The notes under the pieces were generated by a model. That model searched no databases, was not told where the DNA came from, and was given only the letters and a program-made list of their open reading frames with translations. Below are positions 57 to 15,233 of a stretch of 15,233 bases of DNA, piece after piece. The DNA is from a bacterium (GTDB lineage: Bacteria; UBP7; UBA6624), in assembly GCA_002716355.1 (NCBI GenBank), contig PBAU01000015.1, positions 1-15,233 on the forward strand, given 5' to 3'. Position numbers and translations under genes: made by a program. How positions within the stretch are numbered: the stretch's first letter is position 1; every line of letters starts with the position of its first letter.

Positions 57-872
57 ATGGATCTGGCAACCATAATCGGATTAATTAGTGGAACAGCATT
101 AATTCTATTTTCAATGTTTTTAGAAGCAACAAAAAGCAGTATATCTATGTTGAAATTTTGGAGCCCATCAAGTATTATGATTGTTTTAGGTGGAACATTA
201 GCAGCAACATCAGTTGCTTTTAGATTAAAAGAGGTGGCGCGTGTTATTTCTATTATTAAATATGCATTTATTAAGCCTAAGTTTGTGCTGCATGAATTAG
301 TACAAGCTATTATTGAGTTAGCAGAGGCTAATCGTAAAGGACCTGCAGAATTAGAAAAAGAAATTCCAAACATTAAATATCCATTTTTACAAGATGGAGT
401 GCAATTTATTACTCAAGGAATCAAGCTAGATGAGTTGCGAGAAATTTTAGAAGAAAGAGAAGCTTTTAGATATAAAAGAGAATTACACGAATCTGAACTT
501 ATGAAAACAATGGGAATTTATGCACCAGCATTTGGTATGGTTGGAACTTTAATTGGTTTGGTGATTATGTTGTTTGGTATGGGTGGCAACGATAGTGGCG
601 GCGGAGGCGCAGGAGGCATTGGAAGCATTGGTCCAGCTATGGGTGTTGCATTAATTACAACCTTTTATGGGGCTATTTTAGCTAATTTAATTTTTAATCC
701 TTTTGCAGAAAAAATTAAATCTCGTAATAAAGAAAACGTACAAGCTTTTAAAATTATTATTGAAGGTGTTTGCATGCTACATCAAAAGAAACATTACTTT
801 GATGTAAAAGATAAATTAACTTCTTATATCCCAACCGAAGACCGTTTAAAATATTTTAAAGATGATGAATAA
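57..872 (+). CDS. MotA-like stator subunit of an ion-driven motor
   Basis: Inner-membrane stator subunit of the MotA/PomA family, which with MotB forms an ion channel that drives rotation. The 271 residues fit MotA length and layout: two N-terminal membrane segments (about 3-22 and 38-56), a large cytoplasmic loop (about 57-150), and two C-terminal membrane segments (about 154-174 and 192-213). The two prolines important for MotA function (E. coli P173 and P222) align with P157 in YAPAFGMVGTLIGLV and P193 in GPAMGVALITTFYGA. In the loop, NRKGPAELE aligns with the E. coli R90-E98 segment that touches FliG; the glutamate is kept as E100, while the R90 position is Asn with Arg next to it. An unusual glycine-rich stretch (176-192) lies between the last two helices. 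AAGGAG at 46-51, five bases upstream, supports the start. It is first gene of the operon and overlaps the MotB-like gene. MotA family rather than ExbB/TolQ is clear from length, loop and partner; the flagellar role is not established. Confidence 0.9.
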   Translation: MDLATIIGLISGTALILFSMFLEATKSSISMLKFWSPSSIMIVLGGTLAATSVAFRLKEVARVISIIKYAFIKPKFVLHELVQAIIELAEANRKGPAELEKEIPNIKYPFLQDGVQFITQGIKLDELREILEEREAFRYKRELHESELMKTMGIYAPAFGMVGTLIGLVIMLFGMGGNDSGGGGAGGIGSIGPAMGVALITTFYGAILANLIFNPFAEKIKSRNKENVQAFKIIIEGVCMLHQKKHYFDVKDKLTSYIPTEDRLKYFKDDE

Positions 873-1578
873 ACAAGAATTAGACCAATTTGAAGATGAA
901 ATAAGAGGGAGTATTAAAGAAGAGCAGTCATGGATGATGACATATGCAGACATGATGACACTTTTATTTGCTTTTTTTGTTCTTCTTTTTTCTATGTCAA
1001 CAATAGATCCAGTAAAAATATCCCAACTTATGGATGGAATGGGAGATCAACCAGAATTAAAATCATTTAATGAGATAACCAAAGAGTTTGAAGACATATT
1101 AGAAGAACTAAATATTGAGAATCAAGCAAAAGTTTCTAGGGATCCAAGAGGCGTTACATTAGAAATTGATGGAGATATTTGTTTTGAATCAGCAAGCACT
1201 CAGCTACATGAAACATTAATCCGAGTATTAGATTTAGCCGCAAAGAAAGTATTAAGTCAGGCAGATGATCCAAGACTGATTACTGTAGAGGGGCATACTG
1301 ATGCAGATCAAATTCCAAAGGAATTAAGAAAGTTTTTTCCAACAAATTGGGAATTATCTGCTGCAAGAGCTTCAAAAGTTGTAAATTATTTGATTGATAT
1401 TGGTGTAAATTCTGGTAAATTACAGGCATCTGGATATGCCGATAGATGGCCTGCAAGTTTATCTTGGTATGATGTTCGAAGCGGTAAAGTCAATAATGCT
1501 GTTATTGCAGAAAATAATAAAACCGAGGAACAAAAAAAAATAAATCGCAGAATCAAAATTGTTTTTAGTAAAAATTAA
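862..1578 (+). CDS. MotB-like stator subunit with OmpA peptidoglycan-binding domain
   Basis: Partner of the MotA-like protein and peptidoglycan anchor of the stator. A short cytoplasmic N-terminus leads into one membrane helix (about 24-46) with the signature WMMTYADMMTLLFAFFVLLF. D30 matches the essential ion-carrying aspartate of MotB (E. coli D32). After a linker of about 85 residues, an OmpA/MotB C-terminal domain (about 95-238) carries VEGHTD (142-147), NWELSAARA (162-170) and the closing NRRIKI (228-233). At 238 residues it is on the short side for MotB because the linker is compact. The reading frame overlaps the end of the MotA-like gene by 11 bases, with tandem ATG codons at 862 and 865 and no clear ribosome site, so translational coupling is likely. 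The periplasmic domain argues for a wall-anchored stator, unlike ExbD or TolR. Whether the ion is H+ or Na+ cannot be told from the sequence. Confidence 0.92.
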   Translation: MMNKQELDQFEDEIRGSIKEEQSWMMTYADMMTLLFAFFVLLFSMSTIDPVKISQLMDGMGDQPELKSFNEITKEFEDILEELNIENQAKVSRDPRGVTLEIDGDICFESASTQLHETLIRVLDLAAKKVLSQADDPRLITVEGHTDADQIPKELRKFFPTNWELSAARASKVVNYLIDIGVNSGKLQASGYADRWPASLSWYDVRSGKVNNAVIAENNKTEEQKKINRRIKIVFSKN

Positions 1579-1595
1579 ACTTATTGGGAGAATGA

Positions 1596-2903
1596 ATGAA
1601 CCAAAAATTTAAAACAATTATAAATAAAACATTCTTTGTATGTTTGTTTTTGAGTATTGCTCTAATGCAAAATGCAGAATTAATAACCCAAAAAATTAAT
1701 GTAGAAAATGCTATTAGAGATAAAGTGAATGTAACATTAAATAAATTATTAGATCAATCACAGTATGTAATTATCGTGAATGCAAGAATGGATGTTAAGG
1801 CATTTTCAATGAATGATAATTCTACATCTAGTCAGCAGCAAACTAGAAACTATTATAGTCCTATCCCTGGTTTACTACCAACAGTACCACAGAATATTAA
1901 AAAATCAACAGGAACAACTTATCAGTATTCTTCTGATAAATATTTATTATATGGCTTAGATATTGCAATTTATTTAGACGAATCAACAGCAACAGGTTCA
2001 ATGAAACAAAACATTATTCGTTTAGTAAATGATGCAATTCCAGAATTAGTTGATTGTGAAGATTGTATACGATTTGAAACTATGAGCATGAATAACTCAA
2101 CCAGTTCAAGCTATCAAGATTTATTAAATAGAATTGAAACATTAGAACAAGAAAGAAGAGATGCCGAAGCTCAATTGATTAATTGGAAGTTTGACCAATT
2201 AGAAAGTCAGTTACTTATTGCGCAACAAAGAGAAAGATCTCGAGAAATTGCAGATTCGGCGAGATTGGCTAATTTACAAAAAATTGAATTAGAATATAGA
2301 AAAAAACAAGATTCTTTATATGTTTTAACATCAATCAATTTAAATGAAGCAATTAAAGGAAGAATTCAATCTGAATCAGATTTAAATGATAAATTAATTG
2401 ATATTATTAAAAGCGGTATGGACTCCAATGCAGATAGCGATATTATTGGAGGAGGTACTGATTCAGATATTGATAGGTCTAAATCAAATAATGCAGGATT
2501 ATTAATGTGGATTGGCTTTGCAGTTATTGTCTTGTTATTAGGTACATTAATATTAATGGTTATGAAAAATAAACAGCCAGTTTATTTAAAGCCTAAAAAT
2601 TCAAATAAACAGCCCGAATCTTCTGGTTCAGAATCTAATCAAAAACAAAATTTTGATGCCACTCAATCAACAGTTGTACCACCAACTCAAACTACAAGTT
2701 CTGATTCTTTAGATTTAACAGCAACTAGCGCAAATGAAGATGGAGATGTGATGAGATCAGAATTAAAGTCTTTACGTCAATCTGCTGTAGCAATGAGCGT
2801 AAGTCAGAAAGATGGAGCAAATCAAATTGTAAAAGATTGGTTAGATAGTTCTAATGAAGATGGAAATAGTTCAGATGAACAATCTGATGATAAGAAGAGT
2901 TAA
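1596..2903 (+). CDS. FliF-like (MS-ring-like) membrane protein with periplasmic coiled coil
   Basis: No close family is recognised on sight, but the layout resembles a shortened FliF, the ring protein that carries FliG. Seen directly: an N-terminal hydrophobic segment (about 12-25), a periplasmic part, a second membrane helix (about 301-323) and a 110-residue polar cytoplasmic tail. Residues 34-66 (helix, then YVIIVNARMDV), a proline/serine-rich loop (70-115), and 117-164 (LLYGLDIAIYLD, a helix, then IRFETMSM) follow the order of the split ring-building domain 3 of FliF. The tail segment GANQIVKDWL (407-416) resembles the C-terminal FliG-binding motif of FliF, and a FliG-like gene comes next. 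Unlike FliF (usually over 500 residues), ring-building domains 1 and 2 are missing, and a charged coiled coil (about 173-245) sits between the ring domain and the second membrane helix. CEDC at 154-157 could form a periplasmic disulfide. GGGAG at 1586-1590 sets the start. The first hydrophobic segment could also be a signal peptide. Confidence 0.6.
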   Translation: MNQKFKTIINKTFFVCLFLSIALMQNAELITQKINVENAIRDKVNVTLNKLLDQSQYVIIVNARMDVKAFSMNDNSTSSQQQTRNYYSPIPGLLPTVPQNIKKSTGTTYQYSSDKYLLYGLDIAIYLDESTATGSMKQNIIRLVNDAIPELVDCEDCIRFETMSMNNSTSSSYQDLLNRIETLEQERRDAEAQLINWKFDQLESQLLIAQQRERSREIADSARLANLQKIELEYRKKQDSLYVLTSINLNEAIKGRIQSESDLNDKLIDIIKSGMDSNADSDIIGGGTDSDIDRSKSNNAGLLMWIGFAVIVLLLGTLILMVMKNKQPVYLKPKNSNKQPESSGSESNQKQNFDATQSTVVPPTQTTSSDSLDLTATSANEDGDVMRSELKSLRQSAVAMSVSQKDGANQIVKDWLDSSNEDGNSSDEQSDDKKS

Positions 2904-2929
2904 TATATTATAAGGATAAAATAATTATT

Positions 2930-3865
2930 ATGGGAAATGATTTAATAGATACTTTAGCAGGATTAGATAAATCAGCAATTTTATTTCAAGTTTTAGGTGA
3001 GTCTTTAGCCTTAACTATGTTTCAAAGTTTATCTGAGAGCGAAGTTTTAAAAATTAGAGTACGCTCTAAAGAGTTGAAAAATATTCCTTTTGATATTAAG
3101 CAGGCAGTTCTTGAAGAATTTTATTTCAAGATGATGACTCAAAAATATAGACAAGTAAGCAAGTCAAATAAGCTGTTTTCTTTTTTAGATGAATTAAATG
3201 ATGAACAAATATTTTATTTAACTAATACTGAATCTGCAAAAGTTATAGCCCTAACTCTTGATCAGCTATCAGAAGAAAGAAAAATAAAAATTCTTAATCG
3301 TTTTAATGCAAGCATTAAACATAATATTATTATTGAATTTGCCCAACTAAATGAAATTCCCCTAGAAGGTGTTGTGAATATTGCGCATGAATTAAAAAAG
3401 AAAATATCTTTTATACCCGGACCAAAGGAATTTAGTAGAGGAGGAGCACAAAGTATTGCTGCTTTACTGAATCAAATGAGCATTGAAGAATCAGAACAAT
3501 ATTTAAGCCAAATTGAACAAGATGATCCAGAACTTTATTCTAAAGTAAAAAAATACTTTTTATCTTTTGAGGATTTGTTAGATATGCCTGATCATTTAAT
3601 GCAAATATTTTGGAAAAATCCTGATGCAACAGATGTAGATACATTAGCTCAAGCATTAAAAGGCTTTGATCAAGACGTTGTTGATAGGATATTGTCATAT
3701 TTGCCTACAAGAAAACAAAAAATGTATACACCTATCACAACACCATTATCAAAGCGAGATGCAGAAGGCGCACAACAATCTATTATGAAAGTCGCAAAAG
3801 AAATGTCTAAAAACAAAGAATTAAACCTTGATGATATTTTATCAGAAACAGAAATGATAGATTAG
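2930..3865 (+). CDS. FliG-like rotor (switch) protein
   Basis: Cytoplasmic protein resembling FliG, which couples the MS ring to the stator. At 311 residues it is slightly shorter than typical FliG (about 330-345). The N-terminal domain starts with LDKSAILFQVLGESLALTMF (12-31), matching the FliG opening that binds FliF. A middle armadillo-like domain spans about 90-158, a GG hinge lies at 171-172, and the C-terminal domain follows (GGAQSIAALLNQMS, then YFLSFEDLLDMPD in place of the MFXF region, then ALKGFDQ and the torque helix). By hand alignment to E. coli FliG, K244 and R261 match K264 and R281, but the acidic pair D288/D289 is replaced by P268/I269. The EHPQ motif used for FliM binding reads TESAK (100-104). 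This fits a FliG working without a normal C-ring. It is 26 bases after the FliF-like gene, is last in the operon, and is followed by a terminator. A weak AAGGA lies 13 bases upstream of the start. Confidence 0.8.
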   Translation: MGNDLIDTLAGLDKSAILFQVLGESLALTMFQSLSESEVLKIRVRSKELKNIPFDIKQAVLEEFYFKMMTQKYRQVSKSNKLFSFLDELNDEQIFYLTNTESAKVIALTLDQLSEERKIKILNRFNASIKHNIIIEFAQLNEIPLEGVVNIAHELKKKISFIPGPKEFSRGGAQSIAALLNQMSIEESEQYLSQIEQDDPELYSKVKKYFLSFEDLLDMPDHLMQIFWKNPDATDVDTLAQALKGFDQDVVDRILSYLPTRKQKMYTPITTPLSKRDAEGAQQSIMKVAKEMSKNKELNLDDILSETEMID

Positions 3866-3893: not shown

Positions 3894-3926
3894 AAAAAAA
3901 ACCTCTTTTATGAAGAGGTTTTTTTA
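3894..3926. terminator. Bidirectional intrinsic terminator
   Basis: CCTCTT (3902-3907) pairs with AAGAGG (3913-3918) around a five-base loop, and the stem is lengthened by A-tract/T-tract pairing (3895-3901 with 3919-3925) to about 13 base pairs. The T run on either strand allows termination in both directions. It lies between the 3' ends of the convergent FliG-like and dockerin genes, so it probably ends both transcripts. Confidence 0.88.
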
Positions 3927-3957: not shown

Positions 3958-5478
3958 TTATCCTAAAATCATATTAATCATGGCAACGACATCTAAAACA
4001 TTTATAACACCATCTTCATTTAAATCTGAGCAAGCATTATAATTATCTTCACAGTCAGCACACAGTATAATATTAATTGTTAGAACGACATCTAGAACAT
4101 TTAATACTCCATCTGCATTTGCATCCCCATATAATTGACCACATTCATCGCCAGATCCACCAAGATCTAAGTCTAGGGTTACAAATTGTCCACTACCATC
4201 GCTAAATATAAATTCGGCAGCATTACCACCACCAATTGTTGCGCTAAATGTTACACCTTCTTCATATGCATGTCCATCAGGCGTCATAATAAAAACCATA
4301 TCTTCTACCATAACTTCATGAGCTGTTGCTAAATTATTTTCAGCATCTGTATATAAAACAGAAACTATACCTGTTTCAGTATCATATGTTGGGTTTGTAA
4401 GAGAGGGTAAAGAGTTGTCATTTTGCGATTGAGTAGACATAACCAATACCCCAAGATCTGACGTATCTAAAATATTAGTTGAAATATCTAAACCACTAAG
4501 GCCCGCCTCAACTGTAGTACCAACTAAAGCAACCCCATTTAAGGAATTAGGCCAAACTCCCCAATCAGCATCATTAGTAATAATTGATAGTAAAGATGAA
4601 GCTTGAAAATTATTACCAGCAGTTGAATAACTAAAATTCTCACTTAAAACCTCAAATCCTCCAACTTCTCCTGTTGTTAAATCACCATCAATTTTATAAA
4701 TTGCAGGATAAAGCTGACCAAAACCGCCATCACCCCAAGCATATGCATAGGCAACAGGGTTTTCAGCCTCTGGATTTACTATTGCAATAGAATATAAATT
4801 CCATGGTCCAAAAAAAGACCCAGAATCACAGCAAGATCCAGATAATCCTAATGAAGCAAATAATTTATCATCACTATATGTTGCTTTTATATTAACTATA
4901 TCTTGGCTAGCACTAGTTTCTCCAGATTCATCAGTTACTAATGTAGTATATAAATTATTTGCTGGAGGCCATTGGTTATTTTCATTATATGGAGATTGTG
5001 AAACGGTAATTTGACCAAAATCAAGCCCAAGGGAGTTAGAATCAATAGAACCTTGTAAGTACCAATCAACATTATCGCCACCATTTGTTGTAGTTGTTGC
5101 GCCCCATGTACTTTCATATCCCTCTTCATTTATAGGATTTACATTTGAATTTTCTATCCAGCTTTGTTGATTATCAGTAGAAACAAAAACACTTGCAGAT
5201 GTACTTTCAGCTTGTATTAGCGAATCTGATAAATCTGCATGAGTTGTAAAGTTAACTGCTGGAGCTGAAGAACATAAATTTTCTAATAATTCTTCTCTAA
5301 CATTTGGCATAACTTGGTTAACTGCATTTTTTGCAACCATTGCTCGCTCCCAAATAAGTTGAGCGGCTTCCTTATGAATTTGTTCCCATTGTTGAGCAGT
5401 GGGCTGTTGATAATTATTATTAAAACCCAGCGAGCTTAAAATCCATAAAAAACTAAAAATTTTCATACATGTATACAT
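3958..5478 (-). CDS. Secreted protein with C-terminal dockerin-type repeat pair
   Basis: Predicted exported protein of 506 residues and unknown function. A hydrophobic N-terminus (about 5-19, MKIFSFLWILSSLGF) acts as a signal peptide. A helical, Gln/Ala-rich segment (about 22-70) follows, then a long acidic, Ser/Asn/Gly-rich and probably beta-rich body (about 75-440) with no family I recognise. The C-terminus has two dockerin type I-like calcium loops, DANADGVLNVLD (452-463) and DLNEDGVINVLD (485-496). Both have Asp/Asn at loop positions 1, 3, 5, 9 and 12 and are followed by a hydrophobic helix ending in NIIL or NMIL. Paired cysteines (CADC, CSD) lie between them. Such C-terminal repeats are frequent on secreted proteins of marine FCB bacteria outside cellulosomes, where they may be sorting or assembly modules; that role is inference. 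The gene is convergent with the motor operon and shares its terminator. The first ATG is preferred over the one four codons later because GAGG lies at the right distance. Confidence 0.8.
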   Translation of the reverse strand: MYTCMKIFSFLWILSSLGFNNNYQQPTAQQWEQIHKEAAQLIWERAMVAKNAVNQVMPNVREELLENLCSSAPAVNFTTHADLSDSLIQAESTSASVFVSTDNQQSWIENSNVNPINEEGYESTWGATTTTNGGDNVDWYLQGSIDSNSLGLDFGQITVSQSPYNENNQWPPANNLYTTLVTDESGETSASQDIVNIKATYSDDKLFASLGLSGSCCDSGSFFGPWNLYSIAIVNPEAENPVAYAYAWGDGGFGQLYPAIYKIDGDLTTGEVGGFEVLSENFSYSTAGNNFQASSLLSIITNDADWGVWPNSLNGVALVGTTVEAGLSGLDISTNILDTSDLGVLVMSTQSQNDNSLPSLTNPTYDTETGIVSVLYTDAENNLATAHEVMVEDMVFIMTPDGHAYEEGVTFSATIGGGNAAEFIFSDGSGQFVTLDLDLGGSGDECGQLYGDANADGVLNVLDVVLTINIILCADCEDNYNACSDLNEDGVINVLDVVAMINMILG

Positions 5479-8394: not shown

Positions 8395-8790
8395 ATGAAA
8401 ATAGAAAGAATGAATAAAGGAAGCTGGGGAAAAGTAAGAGCTTTTTTTGATTTAACGACTCAAGAAGGTTTTACTATTAAAGGTTTTAAAATTATAGAAG
8501 GGATTAATGGTTTGTTTGTTAGCATGCCAAGCCAAAAAGGTAATGATGAAGAATACTATGATACAATTTGGGTAGATTCTAAGCAATTGAGAGAAGATTT
8601 AAATGAATTAGCAATAAATCAATATAATCAATCTTCTAGCGATACATTATCACCGCCAACTTCAAATGAAAATTCAAGTGAAATGAATAGCACTCCTTCA
8701 ACAGGAGATAATTTATCAGATAATCAACCTGTTGAATCAGAAACTACTGCAGATACTCCAGCATTTTCTGATGATGATATTCCTTTTTAA
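8395..8790 (+). CDS. SpoVG-domain protein with SSB-like C-terminal DDDIPF tail
   Basis: Residues 1-77 match the SpoVG family: GFTIKGFKIIEGINGLFVSMPSQKG (about 25-49, read in parts) aligns with the SpoVG core [21 protein letters not shown], followed by EEYYDTIWV and a C-terminal helix ending in NELAINQY. SpoVG proteins of Firmicutes and Borrelia are small nucleic-acid-binding regulators, usually 85-100 residues. This one is 131 residues because of a disordered Ser/Thr/Asn/Pro/Glu-rich linker (about 78-123) and the terminal FSDDDIPF (124-131). That ending is nearly the same as the acidic tip of E. coli SSB, the docking site for DNA repair and replication proteins. A DNA-associated role recruiting SSB partners is inferred, not shown. 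The gene lies 12 bases ahead of sdhC in the same direction, so probably shares its transcript. No Shine-Dalgarno sequence precedes the ATG, which is common in Bacteroidetes-type genomes. True SSB is excluded because there is no OB-fold sequence. Confidence 0.82.
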   Translation: MKIERMNKGSWGKVRAFFDLTTQEGFTIKGFKIIEGINGLFVSMPSQKGNDEEYYDTIWVDSKQLREDLNELAINQYNQSSSDTLSPPTSNENSSEMNSTPSTGDNLSDNQPVESETTADTPAFSDDDIPF

Positions 8791-12122: not shown

Positions 12123-12746
12123 TTATTGTAGTTTAAAAGAAACAGGAATATTAACCCAAACACCAATTCTCTTTCCCTGTTGTTTTGCAGGAATCCATCT
12201 AGATTTTTGAACAGCCTGTAATGCCATTTTATCTAAAGATTCAAATACTCCTTTAACCAGATAGCAATTTTTTGGTATTCCCTTTTTATTTATAAAAGCA
12301 GCAATAATAACCCTTCCTTCAATTCCTGCTTCTTTTGCTAGTTCAGGATATTCTACAAAGTCTTCCACTTTAAAACCAGGATATGGTTGAGGTTCAACCT
12401 CTCTTGCAATATATTCAAATTGCATGTTATTATTACCTGAGGGTGCTTCCCATTCATCAAAATCTTCTAAATCAGTGTCTTCAATTGTGATATCTTCATC
12501 AAAAAACTCATCTTCTGAAGCTACTGGAATTGAGGGGCGAGGCGGTGGCTCTGGTAATTTAATTTGTTCAGTTTGCGGAATATCAAATGTTTCAATTTCT
12601 TCTTGAATTGTTTTTTCAAATTTTTGAGCTTCACCAAGAAATCTTGGGAAAATATAAAAAATGATGGCAATTCCCATAATTACTCCTAGTGTAACTTCTC
12701 TAATACGTACAGGATAATGGTCTAATAGTGGATCTATTCTCATCAT
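12123..12746 (-). CDS. TonB-family energy transducer
   Basis: Transmits proton-motive force from ExbB/ExbD across the periplasm to outer-membrane receptors. The 207 residues show a short cytoplasmic N-terminus, one membrane helix (about 18-36), a Pro- and acid-rich periplasmic spacer (about 60-105, with PEPPPRP and a run of Glu/Asp), and a TonB C-terminal domain (about 128-207). That domain has EYPELAKEAGIEGRVIIAAF, the GIPKNCYLVKG segment, LDKMALQAVQKSRWIPAKQQG and VWVNIPVSFKLQ. The spacer is shorter and far more acidic than the Pro-Lys stretch of E. coli TonB. It is last in the S41/exbB/exbD/exbD/tonB run, four bases after the second exbD. No TonB-dependent receptor is in the window, so its substrate is unknown. 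Confidence 0.93.
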   Translation of the reverse strand: MMRIDPLLDHYPVRIREVTLGVIMGIAIIFYIFPRFLGEAQKFEKTIQEEIETFDIPQTEQIKLPEPPPRPSIPVASEDEFFDEDITIEDTDLEDFDEWEAPSGNNNMQFEYIAREVEPQPYPGFKVEDFVEYPELAKEAGIEGRVIIAAFINKKGIPKNCYLVKGVFESLDKMALQAVQKSRWIPAKQQGKRIGVWVNIPVSFKLQ

Positions 12747-12750
12747 AATT

Positions 12751-13161
12751 TTATTTTGATTGTGTTAAAGCTGAATAATTTAATTTTAAAGCCTGAGCCT
12801 GCCTAAGTTGAGTATGTATATCAGTTAATGTTTCCATAATACTGTTTTCATCAGACTTTAAGGAAACTGTTAATTTAGGATCTTTGGTAATTTTTAAATA
12901 CATTACTTCTCCTAAATCATTAATATTAATAATTTGATCATCTACTGATATCAACCCATCTTTAGTTGCCCATATATATGAAGTATGTCTTTTGCTTTCT
13001 AATTTTTCTATTGTTTGAGCTCTAGGCAATACGACTTCTAATCCTTCAAACTCACGCATTACAGTAGTAACCATAAAAAATATTAATAGCATGAAAATTA
13101 TATCAGGAAGAGATGATGTAGAAATTTCGTTACTTGTTTTATTTTTTCTATTTAATTTCAT
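12751..13161 (-). CDS. exbD: ExbD/TolR-family proton channel subunit (second copy)
   Basis: Inner-membrane partner of ExbB. The 136 residues have a basic cytoplasmic N-terminus, one membrane helix (about 18-36, SLPDIIFMLLIFFMVTTVM) with the channel aspartate at D20, and a periplasmic domain of about 100 residues. It is the second of two adjacent ExbD genes and differs clearly from its neighbour outside the membrane helix, so this is an old paralogous pair rather than a recent duplication. ExbD pairs are common in FCB-group TonB loci. It lies six bases after the first exbD. TolR cannot be strictly excluded, but the adjoining tonB favours ExbD. Confidence 0.9.
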   Translation of the reverse strand: MKLNRKNKTSNEISTSSLPDIIFMLLIFFMVTTVMREFEGLEVVLPRAQTIEKLESKRHTSYIWATKDGLISVDDQIININDLGEVMYLKITKDPKLTVSLKSDENSIMETLTDIHTQLRQAQALKLNYSALTQSK

Positions 13162-13167
13162 ATTTTA

Positions 13168-13569
13168 TCAATTAGGTGGATTTGCAATAGAAATTTTTGT
13201 TGCTCCAGCTTGCTTCAATTGGTCTAATACTTCGATATAGCTTTTATATTTTGTACGCTTATTAGTTAACACAGAAAAAATTACTTTTTTATTTGCTTTA
13301 ATTCTATCAATTGCCTTTCTTTTTATATCTTTAATTTGTGTTGGCTGATCATCTAATAATACTTTTCCACGGTCATTAATCAAAACATTCACAATATTAT
13401 TTTTATTAACCTCTAGTTCATTCCCTTCAGCAGGAAGAATTAAGCTTATTCCTTTATCAAGTGAAATTGTAGTTGTTACAAGAAAAAAGACTAATAACAA
13501 AAATGCTATATCAGACATTGAAGAAGAATTGACTTCTTGCATTGCGGCTCTTCTAGGTTTTGTGAGCAT
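13168..13569 (-). CDS. exbD: ExbD/TolR-family proton channel subunit (first copy)
   Basis: Single-span ExbD protein of 133 residues: a basic N-terminus (MLTKPRRAAM), a membrane helix (about 18-36, SMSDIAFLLLVFFLVTTTI) with the conserved aspartate at D20, and a periplasmic domain ending near 130 that includes VLINDRGKVLLDDQP and KTKYKSYIEVLDQLKQAGATKISIA-like family features. The ATG overlaps the exbB stop by one base (TAATG), so the two are probably made in a fixed ratio. With the second exbD it may form a heteromeric peripheral subunit in the ExbB pentamer channel; that arrangement is inference. Confidence 0.92.
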   Translation of the reverse strand: MLTKPRRAAMQEVNSSSMSDIAFLLLVFFLVTTTISLDKGISLILPAEGNELEVNKNNIVNVLINDRGKVLLDDQPTQIKDIKRKAIDRIKANKKVIFSVLTNKRTKYKSYIEVLDQLKQAGATKISIANPPN

Positions 13570-14180
13570 TATTTTTTCTTTGTATCTGCTATGCTTTGTA
13601 GTAACATAGATGTACTTTTTTGCATAGTAACAATTTGATTATCTATAATATACATAACAGCATTTTGTAATAGTTGAAGAATTACTGCTACTACTAGTCC
13701 AAAAGCCGTAGTTAATAATGCTACTGAAATACCACCCGCTACTACTGCAGGAGAGATATCATTGGCCATTTTAATATCATTAAATGCTTGAATCATTCCC
13801 CACACAGTTCCCAAAAATCCTAACATAGGCGCCGTTGCTATACATAATGATATCCATGTCATATTTTTTTCTAATGATGCCATTTCAATTGCACCAGATT
13901 GTTCTAAAGATTTTTCAGCCGCCTCTTCTCCTAAATGAGCACGGTCCAATGCATTGTAACATAAATTAGCGACAGGTCCAACTGCTCCATCACATTTATC
14001 TTTGGCCGCACTTACTCCAGAATCTTTAATAGTTTGAGCAATATCTTCAGCAAAATCTTCTTTTGTCGCCAATCCTTTTAATAGATGGTATAATCTTTCA
14101 CCAACAAATACAAAACCAATTATAAAAATAAATAATATTGGCCACATAAATCCGCCACCATCAATAAATAATTGTACCAT
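13569..14180 (-). CDS. exbB: ExbB/TolQ-family proton channel protein
   Basis: Core inner-membrane channel of the TonB energising complex. The 203 residues contain three membrane segments (about 11-31, 108-131 and 145-172). The family signatures are ATAPMLGFLGTVWGMIQAF (115-133) in the second and ISVALLTTAFGLVVAV (151-166) in the third. A cytoplasmic loop of about 75 residues lies between the first two segments. AGGAGA (14187-14192) six bases upstream supports the start. It leads the exbB-exbD-exbD-tonB run, after a 73-base gap from the S41 protease gene that may carry its own promoter. It is a distant relative of the MotA-like protein at the other end of the window, but shorter and with the ExbB topology. 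Confidence 0.94.
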   Translation of the reverse strand: MVQLFIDGGGFMWPILFIFIIGFVFVGERLYHLLKGLATKEDFAEDIAQTIKDSGVSAAKDKCDGAVGPVANLCYNALDRAHLGEEAAEKSLEQSGAIEMASLEKNMTWISLCIATAPMLGFLGTVWGMIQAFNDIKMANDISPAVVAGGISVALLTTAFGLVVAVILQLLQNAVMYIIDNQIVTMQKSTSMLLQSIADTKKK

Positions 14181-14253: not shown

Positions 14254-15233
14254 TTATTCTATTAAAGCCCGCGCCTGATCAAAATTTTCTAATGCAGATT
14301 GAAACTGGCTATCAATTTTTAAACGATTATAATATAAATAGTCTTTACCCCATAATTGAGATGATAATTCTGATTGTATTCTATTATTAATTATTGTCCA
14401 ATTCAATAACAAGCTATCTTCTGAATAGGTTAAGCTATATTCATCATCATTTTTAACTAATTGATTCAGCCAAACAAAGAATTTTTTTGATTTTAATTCA
14501 CTATTTAGAACAGTAGTATTAAATTGTTCAAAGTTAGCAAATTGATTGTATTGGTCTTTAATTTCTGTTGCATACTTAAATAAATATCTAGCAGGACTAA
14601 ATAATAATTTTTGAGAATCCTTTGTTAACGAAAAATTACTTTCTACAAAGATGTCTGGCGTGATACCCCCACCTCCATACACAGTACGTCCTTTTTTTGT
14701 TTTAAATTCAGGCTTATTATTATCGAGTGAATCACTGTGTTCTCTATTTTCTTTTTCTAAATCCATATAGTATTCATCAATTGCATCAAATGGACGCTGA
14801 ATAAGTCTACCTGATGGTGTATAATATTTTGCAACTGTAATACGTGCAGCTGCGCCATTTTCAAGCATATATTGTCGCTGAACTAATCCTTTACCAAAGC
14901 TTGTTTCTCCAATTACAATACCGCGATCTAAATCTTGTAACCCTCCTGCTATTATTTCGCTAGCGCTTGCAGAGGCACGATTAATTAATACTATAATAGG
15001 GAATTGCTTGTCTGTATAACGTTTTGTTGCAAAGTATACTTTATTAGCATTAGGAATTCTACCTTTTGTAAATAACAAAGTATCTTGCGAATTAACAAAT
15101 AAATCTAGTAGTTGCAATGCTTTATCCATTAAACCACCACCATTATTTCTTAAATCCAACACTAGTTGATTCATACCTATTGATTCTAATGAGTCAATTG
15201 ATGAGGAAATTTCTTTATATGTTTTATCCATAA
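14254..15233 (-). CDS. C-terminal processing protease, S41 family (5' end outside window)
   Basis: Periplasmic serine protease of the CtpA/Prc type, cut by the window edge; 325 C-terminal residues are visible, and the ATG at 15229-15231 is probably an internal methionine. Counting from it, the protease core shows LVLDLRNNGGGLMDKA (23-38), NRASASASEIIAGGLQDLDR with nucleophile S89, and GETSFGKGLVQ with the general base K114. The Ser-Lys spacing of 25 equals that of E. coli Prc (S452/K477). YYTPSGRLIQRP and GGGGITPDIFV are typical of the family. A helical C-terminal extension (about 200-325) follows, as in many Bacteroidetes members. The signal peptide and PDZ domain should lie beyond the window. 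It is co-directional with exbB; a link in function is not shown. Confidence 0.93.
   Translation of the reverse strand, partial: MDKTYKEISSSIDSLESIGMNQLVLDLRNNGGGLMDKALQLLDLFVNSQDTLLFTKGRIPNANKVYFATKRYTDKQFPIIVLINRASASASEIIAGGLQDLDRGIVIGETSFGKGLVQRQYMLENGAAARITVAKYYTPSGRLIQRPFDAIDEYYMDLEKENREHSDSLDNNKPEFKTKKGRTVYGGGGITPDIFVESNFSLTKDSQKLLFSPARYLFKYATEIKDQYNQFANFEQFNTTVLNSELKSKKFFVWLNQLVKNDDEYSLTYSEDSLLLNWTIINNRIQSELSSQLWGKDYLYYNRLKIDSQFQSALENFDQARALIE

Follow-up and report, generated by a model that had tools for sequence, protein, structure and literature searches.

We report an operon that probably encodes a flagellum-independent, ion-driven rotary motor working on the outer membrane. FliG and other rotor proteins are known from flagella. 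The operon codes for relatives of the stator proteins MotA and MotB, of the ring protein FliF (here a short form, mini-FliF) and of the rotor protein FliG. It is conserved and under purifying selection, it has an outer-membrane partner gene in related genomes, and key flagellar genes are absent from its genome and from 12 related carriers.

The window analysed here covers contig C15 of genome G000 (1.26 Mb, 16 contigs, 86.6% complete) from its first base to base 15,233. The four open reading frames lie head to tail on one strand (Table 1), tightly packed as the preliminary description had reported, and the MotA and MotB reading frames overlap by 11 bases. A terminator after the fourth gene, also claimed there, was recovered as a hairpin with a T run; it is usable on either strand, and a convergent gene comes next. 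The hairpin was not listed by a simple terminator scanner, probably because the stem absorbs A/T runs. Since the window begins at the contig edge, with 56 bases visible upstream of motA, the 5' part of the operon is probably missing. The four genes had been described as a self-contained unit, and this did not hold: in relatives the same operon has further genes upstream, which encode an outer-membrane beta-barrel/TPR protein, a lipoprotein and in many cases a TPR protein.

Table 1. Coordinates of the motor genes, their domains and the operon end in the window.
Feature	Position	Strand	Evidence
MotA-type stator subunit (A subunit of a 5:2 ion-driven motor)	57..872	+	Pfam MotA_ExbB (PF01618) 9e-22; MotP/PomA/MotA models
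MotB-type stator subunit: MotB plug/TM (Asp30) and OmpA-like peptidoglycan-binding domain	862..1578	+	Pfam MotB_plug (PF13677) 3.9e-18; OmpA (PF00691) 2e-14
Mini-FliF, 435 aa: predicted signal peptide, RBM3, coiled coil, single TM helix, FliG-binding-like tail	1596..2903	+	PF08345 in family; AlphaFold2 model with Foldseek/VIA; topology
RBM3-like domain of mini-FliF, residues ~30-165, alpha-beta-beta-alpha-beta	1683..2090	+	AlphaFold2 model; VIA
Predicted long helix/coiled coil of mini-FliF, residues 171-283, between RBM3 and TM helix	2106..2444	+	DSSP on model
Single transmembrane helix of mini-FliF, residues 302-320	2499..2555	+	Hydropathy 2.77
C-terminal helices of mini-FliF with conserved tail motif, resembling the FliG-binding tail of FliF	2742..2852	+	Alignment; model helices 383-401 and 405-419
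FliG-type rotor protein, N, M and C domains	2930..3865	+	Pfam; EHPQ (FliM-binding) lost, Lys264 equivalent kept
Intrinsic-terminator-like hairpin with T run, operon end	~3894..3925	+	Fold -14.3 kcal/mol

Two other proteins of the window were noted in passing. A SpoVG-like protein (8395-8790, +; NCBIfam 2e-13 over residues 2-84) lies ahead of the succinate dehydrogenase genes, and its long acidic tail closes with DDDIPF, a sequence similar to the C-terminal tip of single-stranded DNA-binding proteins. A dockerin-type-I-like repeat, GDxNxDGVLNVxDxVxxxNxIL, ends two unrelated-looking secreted proteins of G000, one in the window (3958-5478, -; Pfam Dockerin_1 4.6e-7) and one at locus L023 (606-1802, +); to our knowledge, the lineage is not known for cellulosomes.

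The stator proteins are of the flagellar type, and their Pfam matches exceed the gathering scores, in part by a wide margin. The NCBIfam models for MotP, PomA and MotA matched the window MotA at about 1e-50 to 1e-41, the ExbB model only at 0.05, which places it closer to MotA/PomA than to ExbB/TolQ. MotB had been said to hold an aspartate at position 30 and an OmpA domain, and both were found: Asp30 sits in the transmembrane segment within WMMTYADMMTLL, and the OmpA-type domain is of the peptidoglycan-binding kind, so that the flagellar-type stator features are all present. In a 2025 study, flagellar stators and generic ion transporters fall into separate groups (PMC12505986). The NCBIfam scores of MotA and FliG (fliG model, 8.5e-32) are recognisably flagellar-type yet under the equivalog cut-offs, and MotA, MotB and FliG are therefore regarded as divergent members of their families.

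The fourth protein was confirmed as a three-domain FliG, matching FliG_C (PF01706, 3.8e-18), FliG_N (PF14842, 1.8e-11) and FliG_M (PF14841, 8.1e-9) in Pfam, all above the gathering score. In all 30 family members aligned, the EHPQ motif is replaced, the E being kept and HPQ lost, in keeping with the absence of FliM. The charged torque residues of the C domain in E. coli FliG are K264, R281, D288/D289 and R297. In the family the Lys264 equivalent is kept, the Arg281 equivalent is K or R and the R297 equivalent is approximately K/R, and a four-residue gap has mostly removed the acidic pair. In flagellar FliG this acidic pair partners Arg90 of MotA; since it is mostly gone here, the coupling of torque may be weaker or of another kind. 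Maximum-likelihood analysis placed the 30 family FliGs in one clade (support 99/98) and 33 flagellar FliGs in a second (95/87). The latter took in the flagellar FliG of G056, a genome that also carries the family operon, and nesting of the family inside the flagellar FliGs of its own phylum was not seen in the tree. The tree is unrooted, and a 'pre-flagellar' origin is therefore not claimed from it.

The third protein required a family-level analysis. With the window mini-FliF alone, Pfam and NCBIfam gave chance matches only and no significant family, while 14 of the 19 family members matched YscJ_FliF_C (PF08345; best 4.2e-13), and the family profile had FliF as its top match in the PDB, weakly (4.9e-4). 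The AlphaFold2 model was of low confidence overall (pLDDT 58, pTM 0.23); it shows the RBM3-like domain, then a mostly confident helix at 171-248 and another to 283, followed further C-terminally by the TM helix and two C-terminal helices. A Foldseek search with this model, as had been suggested, ranked the S-ring (RBM3) of the MS-ring first with probability 0.99, and VIA aligned residues 22-165 on FliF 228-451 with Z of 8.2-9.1; for the top FliF chains Z was 8.5-9.1 (rmsd mostly 2.2-2.8, ~95-100 residues aligned). PrgK and EscJ were also among the rows. Unrelated OsmC-like proteins came next at Z 7-8, the RBM fold being common to other proteins, so that the sequence evidence matters too. On the profile and fold results together, the FliF relation proposed for this protein was upheld.

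Full FliF comprises RBM1-3 and two TM helices. By heuristic hydropathy prediction, mini-FliF has a signal-peptide-like N-terminus and one strong TM helix; RBM1, RBM2 and the N-terminal TM1 of full FliF were not found, and the predicted signal peptide is directly followed by RBM3. The linker before the TM helix measures 130-206 residues in all family members. As modelled, mini-FliF is a reduced FliF with an added coiled-coil stalk. The family alignment further revealed a conserved tail motif, SVVSMSVGQPxxATxIVKxWL, which resembles the FliG-binding tail of FliF; this motif and the natural fusions described below suggest the cytosolic tail as a putative FliG-binding segment.

In two genomes, G045 and G211, mini-FliF and FliG are one protein. 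Such RBM3-FliG fusions, of 553-740 aa, occur in other lineages, in genomes without FlhA except G211, and one carrier is labelled a Deltaproteobacteria MAG. Their neighbours are MotA and MotB at several loci, and lipoproteins or barrels with a similar C-terminal TPR at others. The fusions and their neighbours support the FliF-FliG pairing and a link to the outer membrane; TPRs are common, and the likeness between those of the fusion neighbours and of the operon's outer-membrane protein is suggestive only. Two further arrangements were observed at fusion loci. Between the fusion gene and motA, a protein of ~1,300 aa is encoded at L078 (1716-5627, -) and L079 (2225-6070, +), both in genomes without FlhA; it has no predicted TM helix, is apparently mostly coiled coil, and could be a cytoplasmic partner of the rotor. 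At L082 (4711-6150, -), two tandem MotB-type genes adjoin MotA and the FliF-FliG fusion, perhaps giving a heterodimeric MotB.

The spread of the operon was surveyed by scanning the collection with an alignment of this FliG type. The scan gave 23 loci, 21 of them labelled Candidatus Neomarinimicrobiota/Marinimicrobia, or FCB or marine bacteria that share the gene set. The best match came from isolate SP328 (76% protein identity), and from these labels the window is assigned to the SAR406 group. The survey of gene linkage proposed in the preliminary description found the order MotA-MotB-miniFliF-FliG kept in all 17 relatives that are complete from motA to fliG; in one of them, L042, mini-FliF is split into two ORFs. 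An outer-membrane-type protein is encoded directly upstream of motA in these 17 relatives (at L032 only its C-terminal part was detected), and upstream of it, where the contig reaches, lie a lipoprotein gene and often a TPR protein gene. The model of the outer-membrane protein has ~12 beta strands, a 77-residue helix and TPR (mean pLDDT 67), and its best matches are OmpG/OmpA-type barrels and TPRs; the polypeptide transporter FapF is also matched by the barrel.

The window lacks these upstream genes. In G000 they are visible only on contig C16 (L023, 7193-10224), where a lipoprotein gene and the outer-membrane protein gene stand beside a second motA at the contig end. This contig was considered as the missing 5' end of the window operon and rejected, its motA being a different copy (75% nucleotide identity); C16 either carries a paralogous operon or stems from a different strain.

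The FliG type was found in about 155 of the 245 genomes of one related phylum (rows with a best E of 7e-69 or lower, conservation being measured around G351), flagellated or not, and mostly as the sole FliG match. Some lineages of that phylum are without it, and it was not found in two relatives of the G000 family (62% and 78% complete) or in a scan of viral contigs. Between close pairs, dN/dS was 0.01-0.06 for MotA, MotB and FliG and 0.06-0.09 for mini-FliF; for the more distant pair of the window and L025 it was 0.09-0.10 and 0.29, respectively. With values far below 1, the operon is under purifying selection. SAR406/Neomarinimicrobiota carries a conserved motor gene set joined to outer-membrane proteins in many members without a flagellum.

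FlhA, FliM, FliN and a filament had been noted as missing beside the four genes, and a genome-wide search for flagellar genes agreed: FlhA (PF00771), FliM/FliN (FliMN_C, PF01052), flagellin (PF00669) and CheW had no match in G000, nor in any of 12 related genomes that carry all or part of the operon. PF00771 covers both the FlhA and the SctV families, and by the same search these 13 genomes have no injectisome-type export gate. FlhA was found in 10 of 26 genomes tested, with the control genomes and the flagellated relatives positive, and FliM/FliN and flagellin were detected in the flagellated relatives G056 and G351; the operon thus occurs both with and without a flagellum. As G000 is 86.6% complete, a missing gene is no proof for this genome alone, and the argument rests on the genome set. 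Neither a full flagellar regulon in G000 nor a third and fourth protein unrelated to FliF and FliG, the two outcomes that would have spoken against the original description, was obtained.

It might be argued that the operon is a remnant of a lost flagellum, the last flagellar genes of a shrinking genome and perhaps functionless. Most carriers without FlhA do have small genomes, and partial sets are usually explained by a loss that leaves remnants (PMC12199754). We nevertheless consider this very improbable: complete flagellated relatives hold the operon besides a separate canonical flagellar FliG and flagellar cluster, hence as a system of its own, which is more than a leftover of flagellar loss. 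In addition, the non-flagellar FliGs group in a separate clade, dN/dS is much lower than 1, and the operon comes with outer-membrane genes of its own and with a mini-FliF that has no RBM1/2.

An envelope-maintenance machine of the Tol-Pal kind is a less remote alternative, still unlikely in our judgement. Here MotAB would pull or twist the outer-membrane lipoprotein or barrel for integrity or division, and FliF and FliG would not turn but give static support, as a scaffold or counter-bearing. A constitutive housekeeping role is suggested by the lack of CheW and by the broad conservation within one phylum, and the outer-membrane barrel, lipoprotein and TPR protein of the operon would fit it; but MotA is far closer to flagellar-type MotA/PomA than to ExbB, MotB has its own peptidoglycan anchor, and FliG retains a C-terminal torque domain with the Lys264 equivalent, which a scaffold would not need. 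We rate as improbable, between these two, a MotAB-powered secretion or surface-assembly machine in which, as in injectisomes, a conduit across the envelope would be made of the RBM3 ring and the outer-membrane barrel. Rings of the T3SS are also built from RBM domains (PrgK and EscJ are among the structural matches) and the barrel matches include FapF. Against this, no FlhA-type export gate was found, mini-FliF is single-pass without RBM1/2, and the role of FliG and MotAB in known systems is torque rather than export.

Compared with known machines, the operon shares with the bacterial flagellar motor homologous MotA, MotB, FliG (N, M and C domains) and FliF RBM3 with a FliG-binding-like tail. 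It differs in that three defining flagellar features, FliM/FliN, FlhA and flagellin, were not found in G000; the parts are flagellar and the assembly is not a flagellum. It differs also in a mini-FliF that, in place of RBM1, RBM2 and the first TM helix, has a predicted signal peptide and a long coiled coil, in the loss of EHPQ from FliG, and in the outer-membrane barrel/TPR and lipoprotein genes within the operon.

By analogy of function, the motors GldLM of type IX secretion and AglRQS/Glt appear nearest. GldLM, which also drives Flavobacterium gliding, is found in a related superphylum; it is an ion-driven rotary motor of the inner membrane that works on proteins of the outer membrane. Neither FliG nor FliF is described for it, and GldL/GldM resemble MotAB without homology (2026 review, PMC13104615). 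In the Agl-Glt gliding motor of Myxococcus, a MotAB/TolQR-like stator (AglRQS) is coupled to envelope and outer-membrane proteins for surface movement, again with no FliG or FliF rotor described, and AglRS falls in the generic transporter clade, outside the flagellar stator clade (PMC12505986). Ton (ExbBD) and Tol-Pal are likewise 5:2 ion-driven motors that do mechanical work on outer-membrane proteins; unlike the operon, they have no rotor ring, and their A subunit is without the flagellar torque interface. G000 has a separate Ton-type motor, encoded by consecutive genes for ExbB, two ExbD-like proteins and a TonB protein (window 12123-14180, -).

For the rotary motor that we favour, the following arrangement is proposed. 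The MotA/MotB stators, anchored to peptidoglycan by the OmpA domain of MotB, would push a ring of FliG, and such a stator-driven ring is the step we hold with most confidence, as very likely. The ring would be held at the inner membrane by the single-pass mini-FliF, whose cytosolic tail would bind FliG. RBM3, the sole periplasmic ring domain, would be raised on a long coiled coil reaching far across the periplasm; the helix could span ~17 nm if continuous (113 residues at 0.15 nm). Rotation would then be passed to an outer-membrane complex of the beta-barrel protein with its periplasmic coiled coil and TPR, the lipoprotein and often the TPR protein, and we regard this coupling as likely, with less assurance than the ring itself. 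There is no sign of CheY-type switching, since CheW is missing from the non-flagellated carriers and the searches gave no FliM/FliN, filament or export gate. The output would be mechanical work on the outer membrane, for example the moving of a surface component; gliding or adhesin movement is plausible, and surface motility as the output is put forward tentatively, as a possibility we would not lean on.

The operon may represent a new class of trans-envelope rotary machine, in which FliG on a single-RBM mini-FliF, driven by MotAB, would turn or drag an outer-membrane barrel/TPR complex without a flagellum, with separate genes in Neomarinimicrobiota and FliF-FliG fusions elsewhere, and which may even descend from a stage before the flagellar export apparatus; to this reading we give somewhat less than even weight. 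No description of such a system was found in the literature searched, preprints and most subscription journals lying outside its scope. What rotor proteins without a filament do has been raised as a question (PMC12199754). As a concrete and conserved half motor that brings outer-membrane partners of its own and occurs in flagellated and non-flagellated genomes alike, the operon makes this question directly testable, and it bears on the origin of the flagellar motor. A widespread, uncultured ocean phylum would gain an unrecognised envelope machine.
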